Assembly (NCBI RefSeq): GCF_038024065.1
Contig: NZ_CP150667.1
Span: 434,001-498,000 of the forward strand
Source of the DNA: Polaribacter sejongensis
GTDB taxonomy: Bacteria; Bacteroidota; Bacteroidia; Flavobacteriales; Flavobacteriaceae
Reading direction: 5' to 3'
DNA: 64,000 bases
In this document: positions 37,916 through 61,262 of the stretch, one piece after another
How positions within the stretch are numbered: position 1 is the first letter of the stretch
Layout: each line of letters starts with the position of its first letter
The notes under the pieces: model-generated
What the model was told of the DNA's origin: nothing
Databases searched by the model: none
What the model saw: only the letters and a program-made list of their open reading frames with translations
Program-made: the position numbers and the translations under genes

Positions 37916-38329
37916 TTATTTTTTATTCGGTGTAAATATGTGAACCTTTTCTGTGCTAAAACCATTGGAAAACCAGGTTCTATAATGTAAAAGATCTGTA
38001 TTAAAATTGGTAGCAATAACGTTGGCTATTGCTTCTAATTTGGTGTTGTTAAAATCGGTATTTGCTTTATCAATATTTAATACAATACCAAAATTATGCT
38101 CTTTTGGTACATTATCATCCCATTCATTTAAGGTTCCAATTTTATAAGGTTTGCTTATGTTATAATCGATTCCGTTAAAATTAACTTCTGCGCTTTCTGT
38201 TTCATCTTCAGTTATAAAAGTCATTTGAGGTAATGATAACAACAAACTAAATTGCTCACAAAATTCTTTTAAACTCAAATCTACAAAAGCAGAAAAATGT
38301 TCAATTTTAGAAATATTATCTATATCCAT
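37916..38329 (-). CDS. conserved hypothetical protein
   Basis: The 137-residue soluble protein is not recognised. It has alternating hydrophobic strands and helices (FVDLSLKEFCEQFSLLL; HNFGIVLNIDKANTDF) and no catalytic motif. It lies 9 bases after miaE and 3 bases before the DUF4268 gene, so all three are probably one transcript. The coding potential is supported by tight packing and codon use like its neighbours. Confidence 0.7.
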   Translation of the reverse strand: MDIDNISKIEHFSAFVDLSLKEFCEQFSLLLSLPQMTFITEDETESAEVNFNGIDYNISKPYKIGTLNEWDDNVPKEHNFGIVLNIDKANTDFNNTKLEAIANVIATNFNTDLLHYRTWFSNGFSTEKVHIFTPNKK

Positions 38330-41533: not shown

Positions 41534-41539
41534 TATTTA

Positions 41540-43608
41540 GTGAAAGAACTTTACTTAGCTAAAACGCTAAACCAATGAAAACTCACAATGTCTTCCTGAG
41601 CCTGTCGAAGGATCGCAGTTGAGTTTTCAATCCTATTTATAGTCAAAGTAATTGGTTAAAAAAGACTTAAACAATTCAGACAGACAAATCGTTGGTGTAA
41701 TTGTGTCCTGGTTATAATTTAATGAAGCCAATTTATTTACTTAAATACGCTAAACCAATGAATACTCACAATGTCCTCCTGAGCCTGTCGAAGGATCACG
41801 TTTGAGTTTTCGGTCCTATGTACATCAAAGTAATTGACTCAAAAAGTCTTCGACAAGCTCAGTCAGACAGACGTTATTGTAATTGTGTTCTGGTTATAAT
41901 TTAACAAAACCAATTTACTTAACTAAAAACGCTAAACCAATGAATACTCACAATGTCCTCCTGAGCCTGTCGAAGGATTACGCTTGAGTTTTCAATCCTA
42001 TGTACATCAAAGCAATTGATTTAAAAAGTCTTCGACAAGCTTAGCCAGACAAATCGTTTGTGTAGTTGTGTTCTGGTTATAATTTAACGAAAGCAATTTA
42101 TTTACTTAAAAACGCTAAACCAATGAATACTCACAATGTCCTCCTGAGCCTGTCGAAGGATTCAGCTTGAGTTTTCAGTTCTATTTAACTCAAAGTAATT
42201 GGTTAAAAAAGACTTCGACAAACTCAGCCAGACAAATCGTTGTTGTAATTGTGTTATGGTTATAATTTAACGAAAGCAATTTACTTAAAAACGCTAAACC
42301 AATGAATACTCACAATGTTATCCTGAGCTTGTCGAAGGATCACAGTTTAGTTTTCAATCTTATTTATATCAAAGTAATTGGTTAAAAAAAGTCTTCGACA
42401 AGCTCAGCCTGACAAATCGTTATTATAATTGTGTTTTAACTTAATGAAACCAATTTACTTAACTAAAAAGGCTAAACCAATAAAAACTCACCATGTCCTC
42501 CTGAGCCTGTCGAAGGATTGCGCTTGAGTTCTCAATTCTATGTACATCAAAGTAATTGACTCAAAAAGTCTTCGACAAGCTCAGTCAGACAGACGTTATT
42601 GTAATTGTGTTCTGGTTATAATTTAACAAAACCAATTTACTTAACTAAAAACGCTAAACCAATGAATACTCACAATGTCCTCCTGAGCCTGTCGAAGGAT
42701 TACGCTTGAGTTTTCAATCCTATGTACATCAAAGCAATTGATTTAAAAAGTCTTCGACAAGCTTAGACTGACAAATCGTTAGTGTAATTGTGTTTTGGTT
42801 TTAACTTAATGAAATCAATTTACTTAACTAAATACGCTAAACCAATGAATACTCACAAAGTCTTCCTGAGCCTGTCGAAGAATCAGAGTTGAGTTTTCAG
42901 TCCTATTTATATAAAAGTAATTGGTTATAAAAGTCTTCAATAAGCTTAGACAGACAAATTGTTGTTGTAATTGTGTTCTGGTTATAATTTAATGAAATCA
43001 ATTTACTTAAGTAAAAACGCTAAACCAATAAAAACTCAAAATGTCCTCCTGAGCCTGTCGAAGGATCATGTTTGAGTTTTCAGACCTATGTATATCAAAG
43101 TAATTGGTTAAAAAAGACTTCGACAAGCTCAGCCAGACAGACGTTAGTGTAATTGTGCTTCGGAAATATTTTAACGACAGTAATTTACTTAACTAAAGAT
43201 GCTGCTCAATGAATACTCACAATGTCATCCTAAGAATGTCGAAGGATTTAGCTTGAGTTTTGAATTCTATGCATATCAAAGTAATTGGTTAAAAAGTCTT
43301 CGACAAGCTCAGCCAGACAAATCGTTATTATAATTGTGTTTTGGTATTAACTTAATGAAATCAATTTACTTAACTAAATACGCTAAACCAATGAATACTC
43401 ACAATGTCTTCCTGAGCCTGTCGAAGGATATTGTTTTAATTCTTTGCCTTAAAAGTGTTAAAGTTGTTGTTGAGATAATTGTGTTTAAATACTACAATAA
43501 TAGTGTTTTAGAGAAATATTTTTTAATTTAATAAAGCAATATACTTAACTAAAAACGCTAATCCAATGAATACTCACAATGTCCTCCTGAGCTTGTCGAA
43601 GGATATAG
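41540..43608. repeat. array of twelve ~182-bp tandem units
   Basis: Units start at the conserved CGCTAAACCAATGAATACTC at about 41565, 41749, 41930, 42113, 42292, 42470, 42652, 42835, 43018, 43200, 43381 and 43556, so the period is 175-184 bases. Each unit has CTGAGCCTGTCGAAGGAT, then about 55 bases later TCTTCGACAAGCTCAG, which is nearly its inverse complement, then CAGACA and a stretch ending TTACTTAACTAAAAA. The last two units lack or alter the right arm. Copies differ by substitutions and small indels. No gene is predicted in it. Confidence 0.95.
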
Positions 43609-43680
43609 TTTAAGACACTTAAAATCGCTCAACTTTCCCTTATTAGACTGCTCTTACAATCAGCAATAATAAAACTGTTG

Positions 43681-46497: not shown

Positions 46498-46712
46498 GTT
46501 TTTAACTTAGAATTGACTAATATATTTATGGGTTTCAGGGTTTTGAAGTTTAGAAACAATAAAAGAGTTGCATTGTGATAATACTGTCTTTGATAATTCT
46601 GAAGGTCTCTGACTAGTAACAAGTCATAATATTATGAGCCTAGAATAATAATGTATAAATTTAATGAAGAAAAGAGTTGTTTTTTAGCTCAGTTCTTTGT
46701 TTCAGGTAGTTT

Positions 46713-47141
46713 TTATATTTCAGTCATTTTAATAGTTTTACTGGATGTTCTTCTTTCTCCATCTTTTGTTGTATAACTTGTAATGAATTTTAATTCTGAA
46801 AATTCTTTATAATTCAGAATATTCTTTTTAATTAAATTAGAAGTTAGCTCAATCTTATTTTTCTTTTCTTCAGATGAAACAGGTTTAAATTCCGAAATCA
46901 TTAGAGTAATGTCATTCGATATTTTTCCATTAAAATTAGTCTCACTTTTCGAAATGAATGGGAATTCACAATTCCAGATTTTTTTTAAACCCTCAATAGT
47001 TTTTTCTCTTGAGTCAGAATATATAATTTCAATTGAATTTATTTCCGAGTTTATTACTAATTCCGTTTTTTTTTGAGAGTCAGTTTTATTTACACAACTT
47101 AACACTAAAATTCCGATTAAAAAGCACAATATTTTTTTCAT
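46713..47141 (-). CDS. hypothetical lipoprotein
   Basis: I start at the ATG at 47139-47141 (MKKILCFLIGILVLSC); an upstream TTG start is possible. The 142-residue protein has a lipoprotein signal with Cys about 16, then a hydrophilic alpha-beta region (KIWNCEFPFISK; ISNDITLMISEF) and a short basic tail. No family is recognised. On the minus strand it follows the attC-like site at 47165-47295 and could be a cassette gene, but I could not find a second attC-like site downstream of it. Confidence 0.7.
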   Translation of the reverse strand: MKKILCFLIGILVLSCVNKTDSQKKTELVINSEINSIEIIYSDSREKTIEGLKKIWNCEFPFISKSETNFNGKISNDITLMISEFKPVSSEEKKNKIELTSNLIKKNILNYKEFSELKFITSYTTKDGERRTSSKTIKMTEI

Positions 47142-47164
47142 TAGTTCCGTTTTTCTCAAATTAT

Positions 47165-47295
47165 TTACGTTTATGTATAAGAATAGTTGCGGGTTTGTAT
47201 GCGAGGATTTTCCGAAGGGAAATCAGACGTTACATACGCGCAACGACTTTTGATTAAGCACTAAGCCGCAATTATTTTTATACGGTGTTATGTGC
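47165..47295. other. attC-like site A (integron-type recombination site)
   Basis: Outer arms GTATAAGAATAGTTGCGG (plus strand, about 47175) and GCAATTATTTTTATAC (about 47268) form a long imperfect inverted repeat, as in attC. The right-hand edge GTTATGTG (47287-47294) is the exact inverse complement of CACATAAC at 48622-48629. The core differs at one position from the GTTRRRY consensus. The 441-residue ORF ends in TAA inside this site. The left-hand core is degenerate (ATTTACG instead of RYYYAAC). Confidence 0.65.
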
Positions 47296-48603
47296 AGATT
47301 TTCTATCTCGATTGTAATAATAGAACATTTTTATAAACTGATTAAGTCTCAAAACACTTTCAAAAATATTCAAACTTTTCAATAAAAATTCACTGTAGCT
47401 AATTTGATATTCTTCATTAGGTCTTTTTGTAATTGGATAATAAGATATGATTTGTGACTCGCTATCAAGTTTTGCTTTAAAATGATTAATTCCATTTCTT
47501 AATTTCGAATCAAACCTATTCTCGAATATTTCGAATATTTCTCCAGTAGAATATTTGTTAAATATTTCCATTTTACTTCCATTGCTAAGATTTTCAAAAT
47601 CGTCTGGGTTATTAACATTTCTGGGTGTTCCTGCGGGCATTGCTGTTATATCTCCTCTTTCTACATAGTTCATAAATTTTATTGGAATTATACTATACCT
47701 CCCTAAAAACTCAAAGCAATCTGTGTAGAACGATTTCAATTTAGTGAAGTTAATTGTAGAAATGTTTTTTTCTTTAAAATCAACATCTTGGAATGTATAT
47801 ACAAAATCAAACCTCAAATCAATAAACTCATTAATTAGGGATGAGCATTCGTGATTGAAGTTTTGTAAAAAAGAATCATTGGTGTAATAATCCGCTACAT
47901 CATTTAATTGTGGATTTTTAAAGGCACTTTCCTTAAATAATGTATCAAATAAATATTGTATAAAATCTGAATGTTTCTCGTAATCAATCCAAGGAAATAC
48001 AAAATGGTTTAAAATAAAGAAATACGCATTAACAAAACCCAAATCAGTTTGGAATTCAAATTCCTTTTCTTGAAGTAGAACGCATTCTTTTTTTAATCGA
48101 TTACTTATTGTTTCAATGTTTTTTTTATTAGAGATTTGGTATGCAGTAACTAAGTCTTTAAGTTCATTCCATTTATTATTATCATATAAAGTTCGTATAT
48201 TATCTCTTTGCCCTGATTCTATAACATTTTTGGGGTCACGAACTGTGGCCATAAATTTATTATGAGGTTCTGTACTGGCTTTTTTAACAGGTAACTTATC
48301 GGAATATTCTAAGAAGAAATCTCCAGATTCAAAATCTCCTTCAGTTTTTTCTCCACGTAAAATTTTGAAGTCTAATGATTCTAAAAAGTTTCGATGAAAT
48401 CCTTGAAAACTTGCATCGGGAATGTCCATTGTATAGCTCTGAAATTTCTCATAGTCAATATCCAATTGAGCTTCAAGAACTGTTCGACAATCAGAATTAG
48501 GGCAATTAAATTTTACATCTTGTTTTTCTCTTGACAGCAGATGTAATCTAAGATTAGTTACTTTTTTACAATTATGACATTTTATATGATATCTAATCCA
48601 CAT
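47278..48603 (-). CDS. cassette-borne hypothetical protein with N-terminal zinc-ribbon
   Basis: The 441-residue protein starts with a zinc-ribbon-like pair of Cys motifs (CHNCKK and CPNSDC, about residues 9-38). The rest is a helical, soluble region without recognisable domains (FEILRGEK, RLNQFIKMFYYYNRDRKSAHNTV end). The start lies about 26 bases after the GTTATGTG edge of the cassette, and the stop codon is within attC-like site A. That is the usual placement of a cassette ORF. Function unknown. Confidence 0.75.
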   Translation of the reverse strand: MWIRYHIKCHNCKKVTNLRLHLLSREKQDVKFNCPNSDCRTVLEAQLDIDYEKFQSYTMDIPDASFQGFHRNFLESLDFKILRGEKTEGDFESGDFFLEYSDKLPVKKASTEPHNKFMATVRDPKNVIESGQRDNIRTLYDNNKWNELKDLVTAYQISNKKNIETISNRLKKECVLLQEKEFEFQTDLGFVNAYFFILNHFVFPWIDYEKHSDFIQYLFDTLFKESAFKNPQLNDVADYYTNDSFLQNFNHECSSLINEFIDLRFDFVYTFQDVDFKEKNISTINFTKLKSFYTDCFEFLGRYSIIPIKFMNYVERGDITAMPAGTPRNVNNPDDFENLSNGSKMEIFNKYSTGEIFEIFENRFDSKLRNGINHFKAKLDSESQIISYYPITKRPNEEYQISYSEFLLKSLNIFESVLRLNQFIKMFYYYNRDRKSAHNTV

Positions 48604-48732
48604 AGTTTTTTTTTCAATTTACACATAACGGTTTTGTATAAGATTAGTTGCGTGTTTAAGCACCTAATTTAGCAAATACAAACCGAATAGAAAATAGACT
48701 GCACCCAAAAGCTTAGACAAATTTATAATTAA

Positions 48733-49512
48733 TTATTGATAATAAAGAGCTCTATATTCTACTGGGCTCATTCCATTTAAATTTAGTTTAATTCTTTCTG
48801 TATTATAATATTTTATATACTCTTTAATTTCTTTTTTCAATTGAATAATCGATATGTATTTGTTTAAATAAAATAATTCAGATTTTAAGATACCAAAGAA
48901 ATTTTCAATTATTGCATTGTCTAGACAGTTTCCTTTTCTAGACATACTTTGTGTAATTCCTTTTTCTTTTAATAACCGTTGATATTGTTTCATTTGATAT
49001 TGCCAACCTTGATCTGAATGTAATATAATGTTTGCTTGGTTAGGAACCTTCTTAAAAGACTTTTTTAGCATCTTAACCACTTGTTCGAAGTTAGGTCTTT
49101 CAGATAATTCATAACTAACTATTTCGCCATTGTATAAATCAATTATTGGTGATAAATATAATTTATTTCCAAAGACTTTAAATTCGGTAATATCAGTTGC
49201 CCATTTTGTATTAGGTTTGGTTGTTTTAAAATTACGTTGAAATATATTGGGTGCTATTTCACCTATCTGTCCTTTGTAAGATTTATATTTTTTAATTCTT
49301 ATCAAACTTTTTAAACCTAATTTTCGCATTAATCTTAAAATTGTTTTATGATTTATAACAAGTCCTCTTTTGTTTATTTCTAAGGTGATTCTTCTATAAC
49401 CATATCTTCCTTTATGATAATGATATATCTCTTTAATTAAGATTTTTACCTCTTCATATTTATCTGTTAATTGACTTCTTTTTTTGTGATAATAATAACT
49501 GCTTCTTGCCAT
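48733..49512 (-). CDS. IS3-family transposase OrfB
   Basis: The 259-residue DDE transposase has a helix-turn-helix-like N-terminal part (YGYRRITLEIN, HKTILRLMRKLGLKS), then a catalytic core with Asp in WATDITEFKVF, Asp in LHSDQGWQY and Glu in NAIIENFFGILKSE. The frame stays open upstream of the listed start as far as the OrfA stop, so the functional protein is probably an OrfAB fusion made by -1 frameshifting in the AGCAAAAAGCG stretch near 49570-49580. Confidence 0.93.
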   Translation of the reverse strand: MARSSYYYHKKRSQLTDKYEEVKILIKEIYHYHKGRYGYRRITLEINKRGLVINHKTILRLMRKLGLKSLIRIKKYKSYKGQIGEIAPNIFQRNFKTTKPNTKWATDITEFKVFGNKLYLSPIIDLYNGEIVSYELSERPNFEQVVKMLKKSFKKVPNQANIILHSDQGWQYQMKQYQRLLKEKGITQSMSRKGNCLDNAIIENFFGILKSELFYLNKYISIIQLKKEIKEYIKYYNTERIKLNLNGMSPVEYRALYYQ

Positions 49513-49568
49513 ATTGGTATGATTTAGTAATAATTCTAAACTATACTTATGCCTTAATTCTGTTATGG

Positions 49569-50084
49569 CTAGCGCTTTTTGCTTTGCGCTGCTAGAACTA
49601 AGGCTTGTAACTTTTTTAGCAAATCCAGCTCAGCTCTTAACGATTCATTTTCCAATAGAAGTTCATCTTCCCTTGTTAAAGGTTTATTAGACTTCTTTTT
49701 TGCTCTCTTAAATTCCATAGATCTAGGTCTTCCTCTTGGTTTATTATTTAAGCCTGTAATTCCTAGTTTTTTATAATTCCTTTGCCAATTCATTATTGCA
49801 GATTTGGTTGGAATATTAAACTTTAAACAAGCTTGACTTAAAGATAATGAATCATCTACAATAGATTCTAAAACTTTCAATTTAAATTTTAAGCTATATT
49901 CTTGATTTTCTCTAGGTAATAAACCTTTTTTACCATGCTTTTCATAAAAACTAACCCAGCTATGAAGAGATGTGTGATGAATACCGTTCAATAACGAAAC
50001 AGTGGAAACTGCTTGATTTTTTTTTAATACTTGTTCTACACAACGTAGTTTAAAATCGTAACTATACTTGACTTTTCTTCCCAT
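49569..50084 (-). CDS. IS3-family OrfA DNA-binding protein
   Basis: The 171-residue protein has two tandem helix-turn-helix regions (YDFKLRCVEQVLKKNQ; LKFKLKVLESIVDDS), a basic linker KPRGRPRSMEFKRAKKK and a leucine-zipper-like end (LLLENESLRAELDLLKKLQAL). This is the usual OrfA of the IS150 group. It ends in TAG just after the A-rich slip site into OrfB. Confidence 0.93.
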   Translation of the reverse strand: MGRKVKYSYDFKLRCVEQVLKKNQAVSTVSLLNGIHHTSLHSWVSFYEKHGKKGLLPRENQEYSLKFKLKVLESIVDDSLSLSQACLKFNIPTKSAIMNWQRNYKKLGITGLNNKPRGRPRSMEFKRAKKKSNKPLTREDELLLENESLRAELDLLKKLQALVLAAQSKKR

Positions 50085-50174
50085 AAAAATACCCTCAAAT
50101 AGTGTCTAACTTTTTGGGGGCAGTGTAAAATCCGCGAGGATTTTCGTAAGTAGGCTCGTACCAAGCAATTAATT

Positions 50175-50906
50175 TTATACGTTGTTGGGTGCAGTATTTA
50201 TTAGTTTTTGTATTGCATAAGCTGCGTGATGAATTGCTTCTTCGGCTTCTCCTCTTTTCAATTCTTGACCGTGAACTGCTCTGTTACTGACGTGAATTGG
50301 ATATCGTAAATTATTTGCAATATCAGAATCTATTATTTTATTTCGAGTAAGAATATCTAATAATTTGGTAACAGAATAAACTTTTTTTATTTCCAGTCCA
50401 TTTTCCTCTCCTATATTCTTTAATAAAATTTCTATATATCTTCTTAATCGAGCAAGAGCATTCCAAGGTTCTCCCATATATAGTTCGTTTATAATCTTGT
50501 CAAATTCCTCACTTACTTTTTCGGTAAATGGAAATTCTTTTATTAGTTCACTCGCTGGATGCTCACTTTCAAATTTTTCTTGTGCTTCTTTTTCTGACTT
50601 TATCTCCTCTTCAGTACCAACGAAACGAGTCAATCGGCTAATCAAATAATCCACTTTTTTGGTCAACTTTTTATTATCAACATAATCCGAAATTGATAAT
50701 TTACCAATGTCATTATCTAAATACTCTCCAAGAGCAAGAATATCTGATGAATCAAGGATTGTTTCTAATTCTTTTTTCTTTAGTTCTTTTAGTAATCTTC
50801 TTTGCTTGATTGAATTTGAAACTCCTGATATACTTGCAACAATCAATGAAATTAGTCCAAGTACTGTGGCAAGAAGAGAAATATAATTTTCTAAATTTTC
50901 GTCCAT
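50175..50906 (-). CDS. hypothetical membrane-anchored protein with DUF4145-like C-terminus
   Basis: The 243-residue protein has one N-terminal transmembrane segment (about 9-25), a charged coiled-coil-like middle, and a C-terminal helical region with WNALARLRRYIEILLK and NRAVHGQELKRGEAEEA, which resembles DUF4145 or HEPN-like proteins. The stop codon falls inside attC-like site B. It follows the next gene by two bases and both share one cassette. Function unknown; HEPN-type RNase activity is only a possibility. Confidence 0.7.
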   Translation of the reverse strand: MDENLENYISLLATVLGLISLIVASISGVSNSIKQRRLLKELKKKELETILDSSDILALGEYLDNDIGKLSISDYVDNKKLTKKVDYLISRLTRFVGTEEEIKSEKEAQEKFESEHPASELIKEFPFTEKVSEEFDKIINELYMGEPWNALARLRRYIEILLKNIGEENGLEIKKVYSVTKLLDILTRNKIIDSDIANNLRYPIHVSNRAVHGQELKRGEAEEAIHHAAYAIQKLINTAPNNV

Positions 50907-50908
50907 AA

Positions 50909-51283
50909 TTATTCGTTATTTAATGCTGAACGATACAATGCCAAAAATGGTGTTATCTGTTTAAATCTATTTAATAAAGTAATTGATGCTATATATTTTC
51001 TACCCAATTTGCTAACTCGGTAAAGTTCGTAGAAACCGTAGGACATTGTTAGAAGTGAAAAACCCAATGGATATAACATTGTAGTATTATCAATCTTTAA
51101 CTCACTCTTAAAAAATGCTATTGCAAGTGCAACAATCAATGATATTGCGATACTTATCGTACCCTTTATAATCATTAATTTTCTTTCGTGATGCCATTCA
51201 TATACTTTTTTTAATTCGGCTTCAGGGTCAGTTACTTCCTGTGTAGCTAAATTAATTAAATCTCTTATGTTAATGTCTTTCAT
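50909..51283 (-). CDS. hypothetical two-helix membrane protein
   Basis: I start at ATG 51281-51283 (MKDINIRDLINLATQ); an upstream GTG at 51301 is inside the cassette edge. The 124-residue protein has two hydrophobic segments (about 40-60 and 68-90) and is otherwise helical. No family is recognised. It is paired with the DUF4145-like gene two bases downstream, so both may act together at the membrane. Confidence 0.6.
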   Translation of the reverse strand: MKDINIRDLINLATQEVTDPEAELKKVYEWHHERKLMIIKGTISIAISLIVALAIAFFKSELKIDNTTMLYPLGFSLLTMSYGFYELYRVSKLGRKYIASITLLNRFKQITPFLALYRSALNNE

Positions 51284-51296
51284 AGTTTTCTCATAT

Positions 51297-51306
51297 TGCA
51301 CCCAAC
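51297..51306. other. cassette edge, partner of attC-like site B
   Basis: TGCACCCAAC is a perfect inverse complement of GTTGGGTGCA at 50184-50193, and ACCCAAC fits RYYYAAC. Beyond it the sequence is AT-rich without the second arm, so this is the truncated outer limit of the array. Confidence 0.55.
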
Positions 51307-51660
51307 TTGTTTATATATTTACATTAATTCATCATATCATCCTTCATTAGGAAAATATGCTCAATTATTTAAGTTTTTTTGTTTGAAATTCTTTCATAGC
51401 AAATGAGGGAAGAATTTTTCATGATAAAAGTACAATTTATATGGTGTTTATATAGATTAACTTATTAACAGTAATTTGTTAATTATCAATCTTAAAAAGA
51501 CCTCAGTTTTGTCATTTCGACCTTTTAGAGAAATCATTTATAGGAACATCATTTATGAAATTTAACTAGTGATCCATAATGTTATCAACTAAGTTTTGTA
51601 CTGAGGCAGATAATACTATTTTATAAACAAAAAAAAGTTGTCTAAAAAATCACCACTTTA
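51307..51660. other. non-coding gap
   Basis: AT-rich DNA without a gene or hairpin I can support. Confidence 0.4.
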
Positions 51661-53546: not shown

Positions 53547-53715
53547 TGGTGTTGTTGGTAATAAGTTAAAAGATTAAGTTGATTTTTTTTGAATAAAAGC
53601 AGGTTAGCTAAGATAGTGATTTTAGCAAAAATTTAAAAGTAAAAAATTGAACGATTACTGAAAATGATAGTTGTCATGGTTATATGTATATAAGGTTAAC
53701 CTGTGTTTTTTAAAC

Positions 53716-60518: not shown

Positions 60519-61262
60519 TTATTGGACTTTCTTTTTTTGATAGTATTTTCGCCTCGTTTTTATAACTTTATATCTAAAATCATCAAAGAATAAGCTTGCT
60601 AATAAAAACAATGCAGCTAAAATTAAAGTATTTAACTTTAAATCTAATTTAGAATAGAAAAAACCACCTATTAATCCTCCTGCAAAAAAGAATAGAATAA
60701 TATAAACTCGGAGTTTGATATTAGATTTCAGTAATTCTTTCTGTGGTGCCAATTTAGGAAAACATAATAAAGAAAGATCAATTCCTAAATCTGTAAATAA
60801 TCCGGTTAAGTGTGTCGTTCTTACAACTGCATTAGAAATTTTTGTTACAAAGGAGTTTTGTAATCCCATAGCAAAAAGTAATAAACAGATAATAAGGTTT
60901 GCGTATTCTAATTCCATAAAATTACTAATAAGCCCTATAGAAATTAAAACAAGGCACTCAATAACCGTTGGCAATACAAAGACATTCAGTTTTTTGTTTT
61001 CACTATATTTTTCTATCAGAAAGCTAGATAAAAAAGAACCTAAAAGAAATGAGAAAATATAAAGGAAATAAATTGTTCCTTTCCAAAAATCAAAATTAGC
61101 AACGTCATAAATAAACAAGGCAAAATGCCCTGTAACATTTGTAGTTAATTGTTTAAATGCCAAAAAACCGCTAACATTTACAATTCCAGCTACAAAAGAA
61201 AGTATGGTTGCAATTCTTAAATTATGTTTTAAAGTTCTGCTTTTACCTTGATGTCTAAACAT
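60519..61262 (-). CDS. DUF1275 (YoaK-type) membrane protein
   Basis: The 247-residue protein has about six membrane helices. VAGIVNVSGFLAFKQLTTNVTGH at the start and the block GLQNSFVTKISNAVVRTTHLTG in the middle are characteristic of the YoaK/DUF1275 family. Its function is unknown. It is a single gene. Confidence 0.9.
   Translation of the reverse strand: MFRHQGKSRTLKHNLRIATILSFVAGIVNVSGFLAFKQLTTNVTGHFALFIYDVANFDFWKGTIYFLYIFSFLLGSFLSSFLIEKYSENKKLNVFVLPTVIECLVLISIGLISNFMELEYANLIICLLLFAMGLQNSFVTKISNAVVRTTHLTGLFTDLGIDLSLLCFPKLAPQKELLKSNIKLRVYIILFFFAGGLIGGFFYSKLDLKLNTLILAALFLLASLFFDDFRYKVIKTRRKYYQKKKVQ

Follow-up and report, generated by a model that had tools for sequence, protein, structure and literature searches.

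An outlying integron-type cassette locus in Polaribacter sejongensis and its probable tie to a chromosomal array beside a tyrosine recombinase other than IntI

Between positions 47163 and 51306 of a 64,000-nt stretch of the Polaribacter sejongensis genome (the window; C1:434001-498000 of a single contig of 4,504,946 bases) lie two integron-type gene cassettes on the minus strand, each with a foldable attC-like site. This confirms an earlier note that was made from the letters of the window alone. The locus is very probably an outlying cassette locus that sits behind an attI-like site and would be served in trans by an integron-like system with a recombinase other than IntI. A DNA search with the window region and an iterated profile found the main array of this system at C1:4172991-4256482, where about 78 sites are spread over about 83 kb on one strand at E 1e-4. 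This array adjoins a tyrosine recombinase of about 385 aa and an attI-like site and lies directly downstream of both. Along the contig, 3.77 Mb separate the platform from the window locus (about 0.73 Mb if the contig forms a circle), so the earlier description of an array without an integrase holds for the window and fails for the genome.

Cassette boundaries at the window locus and in the main array

Read along the minus strand, the window locus starts with a TATATAAACAAG flank (51317-51306), followed by cassette 1 with two open reading frames (ORFs), an attC split by an insertion sequence (IS) of the IS3 family, cassette 2 with an ORF of 441 aa, and an intact attC, after which it continues toward msrA. 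Cassette 1 starts with GTTGGGTGCAAT (51306-51295) and ends with ACTGCACCCAAC (50195-50184), and cassette 2 starts with GTTATGTG (48629) and ends with CTGCACATAAC (47297-47287). Both carry a core opening with GTT at the start and its reverse complement at the end, as the earlier note had described, and its statement that ORFs stop at the TAA of GTATAA within the site was also borne out (endings TAPNNV and SAHNTV, each directly before the stop). The two long imperfect palindromes that it reported do belong to attC-like sites; one of them is a single attC whose arms are 1.4 kb apart because the IS (~48695-50127) inserted into it. Cores of the GTTRRRY/RYYYAAC type were likewise found at the cassettes, with the exception of the last site, which ends in ACG followed by TAAAT.

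The boundary pattern could be counted in the main array. In the genome, 81 full attC sites were listed, 72 of them in this array, and with split sites included, the 5' end is readable for 78 sites of the array. Of 71 pairs of adjacent full sites, 63 have exactly matching cassette ends over 9 nt, compared with a mean of 3.4 and a maximum of 10 in 2000 shuffles, and 5 of the 8 pairs that do not match have an IS-split site in between (such sites were excluded from this count and from the count of cassette pairs across genomes given below). The 9-nt test replaced a 12-nt test that found 52 of 78 starts, fewer because the two cassette ends differ systematically beyond about 9 bases. Among 686 cassettes from fetched arrays, the first 7 nt are the reverse complement of the last 7 in 598 (shuffled mean 55.8, maximum 76 in 500).

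Smaller attC clusters are present near 0.73, 1.39, 2.55 (weak), 2.78, 3.82, and 3.86 Mb. Sites at several chromosomal places would also fit a dispersed palindromic repeat (similar to repetitive extragenic palindromes or to miniature inverted-repeat transposable elements). We give this practically no chance, as it is contradicted by the complementarity of neighbouring site boundaries far above shuffles, by the single orientation within the array, and by the exact cassette-sized exchange described below. A repeat lacking cassette boundaries, which the earlier note had allowed for, was not found.

The features of the window locus, all on the minus strand, are as follows.

51307..51330: attI-like insertion site (possibly an orphan attI, or attG-like), ...TATATAAACAA^G, with entry between G (51306) and TT; TATATAAACAAG^TT in two sister species
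48629..51306: cassette 1 (two genes, attC split by the IS), start GTTGGGTGCAAT, R'' ACTGCACCCAAC at 50195-50184
50909..51301: cassette-1 ORF, 130 aa, no convincing family
50175..50906: cassette-1 ORF, 243 aa, weakly DUF4145- or HepT-like, its stop being the TAA of GTATAA in the attC
50128..50190: attC of cassette 1, 5' half (R'', L'', and part of the hairpin)
~48695-50127: IS3-family element in the terminal hairpin of the attC, with a helix-turn-helix ORF (49569-50084) and an rve transposase ORF (48733-49512)
48627..48694: attC of cassette 1, 3' half (L', R')
47168..48628: cassette 2 (one gene and attC)
47278..48603: cassette-2 ORF, 441 aa, no Pfam or PADLOC family
47163..47294: attC of cassette 2, intact, with the degenerate 3' core

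A covariance model of the attC, an analysis that the earlier note had proposed, matched both window sites. Its training set consisted of 28 sites, all from this genome, and its E-values are rough because the calibration was short. The match at 47161-47294 has an E-value of 1.4e-18, which is not independent because 47163-47294 is among the 28 sites, and the IS-split site was matched at E 0.0014. The earlier statement that no integrase gene is in the window stands: the best tblastn match of the recombinase family in the window (60843-61214, E 0.04) is a DUF1275 membrane protein. We also considered an integrase relic at this locus and rejected it, as loci L119 and L120 contained no integrase match and the window gave the DUF1275 protein alone. 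With two attC sites, one of them IS-split, and no integrase found in the window, the locus has the composition of a cluster of attC sites lacking integrases (CALIN; at least two attC and no integrase nearby).

None of the window's cassette genes received a convincing function from searches of Pfam, NCBIfam, and PADLOC. In the main array, a simple ORF scan of 72 stretches showed that the longest ORF runs along the array in 47 and against it in 5, and that 20 have none of at least 50 aa. The first array cassette after the attI (L022, C1:4256490-4257076) has no long ORF listed and contains several imperfect repeats of about 100 nt. The stretch ending near C1:4197881 carries a 300-aa ORF on the opposite strand, present in two copies and transposase-like by eye.

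Structure of the attC sites

The sites have cores of the RYYYAAC...GTTRRRY type and a foldable stem with an unpaired central spacer. On the bottom strand, 95.7% of stem cells are paired in the 28 sites of this genome, and 9 of 19 pairs are compensated. The values were 98.7% paired and 13 of 19 pairs compensated for the best 150 of 233 matches, where the 233 come from 76 integrase loci and one phage and the 150-site alignment was fitted to the model. One stem pair is G·T on the bottom strand in all 28 sites of the first set and in 147 of the 150, and the bottom strand is the more stable one in 77 of 81 sites, with one tie (mean -3.9 kcal/mol).

In canonical attC sites, two or three bases of the R''-L'' arm are extrahelical, and PMC2727003 describes the first of them as essential for strand selectivity. 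Here, the L'' arm has no extrahelical base in 147 of 150 sites (two of the others have an inserted base and one has no partner base on the other arm), and the stem of 129 of 150 sites has neither insertion nor deletion. For the most part, these sites are thus without the extrahelical bases of canonical attC.

The attI site and attI-like sites

ATATAAC, followed after 1-2 nt by GTT, stands 3' of the integrase stop codon at 31 of 37 loci, and the first cassette starts there at G^TT. The exact TATATTTG was found in 15 of the 37 integrase loci and the looser TAnnTTWR nearby in 34. TATAA is present within 13 nt before the start for 36 of 39 starts behind an integrase, compared with 2.7% of 44,146 GTTs. 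As judged from sequence alone, an attI thus lies beside the integrase gene. TATATTTG fits what we take to be the -7 box of Bacteroidetes, and the stretch behind the integrase may therefore also hold the cassette promoter.

Six cassette starts in the genome lie behind neither a detected attC nor an integrase, and four of these have TATAA within 13 nt upstream, again compared with 2.7% of all GTTs (the survey of start contexts omitted 102 starts that were not found there). At the window locus, the 11-nt core TATATAAACAA is identical to the core before the array behind an integrase of a second subfamily in genome G473. The window site may therefore be an orphan attI that remained when such a platform was lost, or it may be an attI-like chance site.

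Cassette turnover at the window locus and movement between genomes

The sister species G470 and G473 keep both msrA and the right flank of the locus. What lies between the two differs for the most part and includes attC; it measures 9.9 kb in G470, 4.8 kb in G473, and 4.8 kb in the window. Behind the common TATATAAACAAG, the first cassette starts with GTTGGGTGCAAT in the window, GTTGTATGCAAT in G470, and GTTACCTGCAAG in G473, and the sequences part exactly at G^TT. Different first cassettes behind the same attI-like flank indicate, at the level of sequence, that cassettes turn over at the window locus. A fixed gene order in relatives, which the earlier note had named as the opposite outcome, was not found. 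In G486, only about 260 bases separate the aligned end of msrA from that of the gene at window position 53706.

Alternatively, the window locus may be debris that no longer exchanges cassettes, either a piece of the main array displaced by a rearrangement or what remains of a second platform now lost. An IS lies within one attC, the last core is degenerate, and the window contains no integrase. The attI-like core shared with the second-subfamily locus of G473 would fit a platform that lost its gene, and at this place G470 likewise carries an attC split by an IS (81% alike over 1.6 kb). Against this stand the three species with three first cassettes behind the same flank, each breaking at G^TT, and the mostly differing sequence (4.8, 9.9, and 4.8 kb) that they have between shared chromosomal flanks. 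We therefore consider debris an unlikely explanation and prefer a locus that takes part in cassette exchange.

Cassettes differ between relatives and are also shared between genomes as units, with one exception in which the attC was not shared. The 243-aa gene of cassette 1 was found at E 1e-30 in 1 of 299 genomes of the family, namely its own, and the 441-aa gene of cassette 2 in 2 of 299, its own included; the other belongs to a different genus, with 93% protein identity. The stretch 48630-47278 has 92% DNA identity over 1353 nt with a stretch of this second genome (L137), and the similarity ends at G^TT on one side and beside the R'' box on the other. The attC after the homologue in L137 is unrelated to that of the window. 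This and other first comparisons pointed to gene bodies that move and leave their attC behind. We then compared 95 end-to-end cassette pairs across genomes, which are not independent because repeated cassettes are counted many times. Median attC identity was 98.3% where gene identity was at least 95% (11 pairs), 87.0% at 90-95% (38 pairs), 82.5% at 85-90% (24 pairs), 90.0% at 80-85% (16 pairs), and 65.7% at 70-80% (6 pairs), compared with a background median of 68.9% (5-95%: 61.3-85.6). A general exchange of attC between cassettes was therefore rejected; the attC mostly follows its gene, with outliers. An earlier list of 516 pairs was not used for counts, as many of the rows shown resemble integrase-containing stretches.

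Three observations concern the surroundings of the locus. Directly after the last, degenerate attC core, a 148-aa ORF that is lipoprotein-like by eye (46713-47159, minus strand) may be a terminal cassette minus its attC or a chromosomal gene. The region that varies between the sister species extends to about position 46507 of the window. At 41535-43655, about 10 imperfect tandem copies of a unit of about 183 nt match one stretch of about 260 nt in G470.

An IS3-family element in attC hairpins

The element that splits the attC of cassette 1 consists of two ORFs (HTH_Tnp_1 and rve) and inverted ends, which assigns it to the IS3 family on the basis of its domains rather than of a search of an IS database. 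All 9 of the 9 long copies listed sit inside the terminal hairpin of an attC in the same orientation (window, main array, and the 0.73- and 3.82-Mb clusters), and it is thus an attC-hairpin-specific IS. Like this element, IS1111-attC targets the attC of gene cassettes (PMC11187229), whereas the window element belongs to the IS3 family, has an rve transposase, and lies in the terminal hairpin.

The linked recombinase

The gene beside the main array is the following.

C1:4257113-4258270, minus strand: tyrosine recombinase, 386-codon frame, pointing toward the array and beside its first cassette

Residues R223, K248, H312, R315, H338, and Y347, the catalytic residues of tyrosine recombinases, are invariant in alignment A5 (29 rows), as are the same columns in A2 (20 rows). 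The protein scored 205.6 bits against the integron integrase model TIGR02249 (cut-off 265) and 219.8 bits against NF040815 (cut-off 220). Its alignment to IntI 2a3v omits chain residues 180-248. Between the catalytic K region and the H box, 20 of 20 family members have 64-67 residues, whereas IntI have 105-106 (11 measured of 13). In a tree of 46 proteins, the 13 IntI form one clade (100/100) with the recombinase family outside and XerC/D separate; the IntI in this tree all derive from a single Shewanella IntI with its close matches, and long branches were flagged. The earlier note had proposed a search for an IntI-type tyrosine integrase in the genome, and no canonical IntI over the cut-off was found. 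By these sequence tests the linked recombinase is not IntI: it has no IntI insert of about 41 residues, does not reach the IntI cut-off, and carries an additional N-terminal domain.

This N-terminal part of about 75 residues, modelled from relatives, is predicted to be a beta-beta-alpha-beta-beta-alpha domain. A weak resemblance to HARP (Pfam PF07443) was found by sequence in 7 of 29 members (best E 7.8e-4) and with N-terminal pieces in 5 of 22 (best E 0.0043; one at 14.3 bits, cut-off 25). By structure, the SMARCAL1 HARP domain 4o66 ranked third at E 0.12 among XPB matches, with nothing at E 0.001, and VIA-align of the whole model returned no HARP row, in a search that barely probes the N terminus. 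The HARP protein binds forks and junctions of single- and double-stranded DNA, as PMC4035279 reports, so one may guess by analogy that the N-terminal domain grips the folded attC.

It could be argued that this is an ordinary integron with a divergent IntI that lost its insert, and that the attC differences have no functional meaning. The architecture is the same, and IntI 2a3v ranks third among solved structures, by sequence and by structure. In addition, a published tyrosine recombinase classification describes the insert as not fully conserved in an integron-like subgroup (PMC8138268), and an attC of Polaribacter phage P12002L was recombined by IntI1 according to PMC9892861. On the other hand, the sampled IntI form a clade that excludes these enzymes, though from one Shewanella-derived sample with long branches. 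The K-to-H spacing also differs, and archaeal Xer and XerA rank above IntI: these two, followed by 2a3v, were the best structural matches of an AlphaFold model made from P0001, a protein 97% identical to the recombinase (predicted local distance difference test 81, predicted template modelling score 0.50). An ordinary integron therefore seems unlikely to us.

A second integrase subfamily (about 380 aa, 35-46% identity) includes G482 (L174), G473 (L147), and part of the loci L109-L118; several of its matches list stops, and some precede attI-like sites and arrays. In G482 and G473, the second-subfamily integrase (38-46% identity) stands before such sites. In Tenacibaculum pelagium, integrase matches occur on three contigs of one assembly (L034, L043, and L044), two of them cut at contig ends; these three loci are possibly duplicated platforms.

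Distribution and linkage of sites and recombinase

The attC model matched 127 of 149 Flavobacteriaceae genomes (E 1e-3), 45 genomes in a draw of 296 from the phylum (E 1e-4), and 17 of 18 chosen genomes of the same genus (E 1e-6), with at least 50 sites each in 9 of the 18. At E up to 1 it had no match in two Escherichia coli stretches or in a Shewanella phage for which a canonical integron has been reported. Relatives of the integrase at E 1e-40 were present in 100 of the 149 Flavobacteriaceae genomes, 94 of which also have attC, and IntI over the cut-off in none of the 149. The nearest named relatives of the integrase are mostly from Polaribacter.

We fetched 76 integrase loci from named genomes, 45 of them with at least 1.5 kb downstream. 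An attC lies downstream of the integrase in 40 of these 45 by nhmmer, and a 41st (L100) was added by the covariance model. The downstream matches comprise 215 in the direction of the integrase and 3 in the opposite one, and upstream there were 9 in 679 kb. Contig ends lie less than 500 nt from the integrase in 18 loci, as expected if repeats break assemblies.

This linkage bears on the question whether the cassettes owe their movement to XerC/XerD or a phage integrase instead, with the neighbouring enzyme as a bystander. XerC/D-like genes are present in the genome, and Polaribacter and Cellulophaga phages carry related integrases. The consistent linkage, orientation, and attI conservation at the linked enzyme make a bystander role very unlikely, and the model found no attC around the two XerC/D-like genes (L011-L014, about 3.2-3.6 kb each).

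Discussion

The earlier reading of the locus as integron-type cassettes is supported by its anatomy, by the boundary cores, and by the cassette differences between species. We infer that the recombinase at C1:4257113-4258270 catalyses the movement of these cassettes. It would circularise them by joining the cores of neighbouring attC and insert them at the G^TT of the attI, about 33 nt past its own stop codon. Insertion would also occur at attI-like sites elsewhere, such as TATATAAACAAG^TT at window position 51306, and the enzyme would thus act in trans on the window locus. The bottom strand of the attC probably folds into a hairpin that is the real substrate, as in integrons, and strand identity would be read from the conserved G·T wobble and the asymmetric spacer, not from extrahelical bases. 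The enzyme would do so without the IntI insert and with an extra N-terminal domain.

Several observations weigh against this picture. At the locus itself, the degenerate last core means that the last window site may be inactive. Two of the six ectopic starts, near 2.78 and 3.86 Mb, have no TATAA, and only 11 of 56 starts labelled "elsewhere" have it; many of the latter resemble attC ends missed by the profile, so that 56 is not a count of ectopic sites. In some cross-genus pairs (about 92% identity) the attC is not co-inherited, and the change occurs at the R'' box. As for the co-occurrence of sites and enzyme, 33 of 49 genomes without a detected integrase have attC, 6 of 100 genomes with the integrase have none, and 4 of the 45 integrase loci have no attC by either method. 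In genus g128 of the same family, attC occur in 3 of 17 genomes listed. Finally, the literature search found no experiment on the linked recombinase.

The system resembles the sedentary chromosomal integrons in its linked tyrosine recombinase, attI-like site, long one-strand array, G^TT cores, foldable attC with a bottom-strand bias, and ORF-less as well as single-gene cassettes. It differs from them in its recombinase (no IntI insert, a score under the IntI cut-off, an additional N-terminal domain), in an L'' arm that has no extrahelical base in 147 of 150 sites, and in an integrase gene that points toward the array. In the chromosomal integrons of Treponema the integrase is also transcribed toward the attI, in the direction of the cassettes, but the enzyme there is named intI (PMC3607928), whereas the one studied here is not IntI by the tests made. 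Like CALINs and the attG sites of PMC12901181, the window locus is a two-attC cluster at a secondary site with no local integrase; unlike them, its site resembles the system's own attI. The system is therefore integron-like by its architecture, and by IntI and the extrahelical bases it is not a standard member.

The attC model R1 matches sites in Polaribacter phage P12002L at E 5.6e-13 and weaker, and the short site at 38031-38094 has the same G·T pattern and no bulge; in contrast to the genome sites, these are phage-borne. One site of this phage, published as P12002L_attC2, was recombined by IntI1 on the bottom strand with no significant difference from a standard site, according to PMC9892861, which gives no recombinants for its top strand and none for the other P12002L site tested.

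For Bacteroidetes, a survey lists one complete integron beyond Chlorobi and Ignavibacteriae, that of Salinibacter ruber M1 (PMC9024848). We recognised no paper on the present system in the literature searched (open PMC papers). It is tempting, though we hold it only tentatively, to see here a separate integron lineage in Flavobacteriaceae, defined by a Xer/XerA-like recombinase with a HARP-like N terminus and no IntI insert, a folded bottom-strand attC without extrahelical bases, a strand read from G·T, and dispersed attI-like sites. If this is true, the capture of cassettes from a single strand arose twice or predates IntI. If the enzyme works as we propose, a large gene-exchange system has been overlooked, perhaps because searches target IntI and canonical attC. 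As the system appears to do without the IntI insert and extrahelical bases, it would offer a natural test of their purpose.

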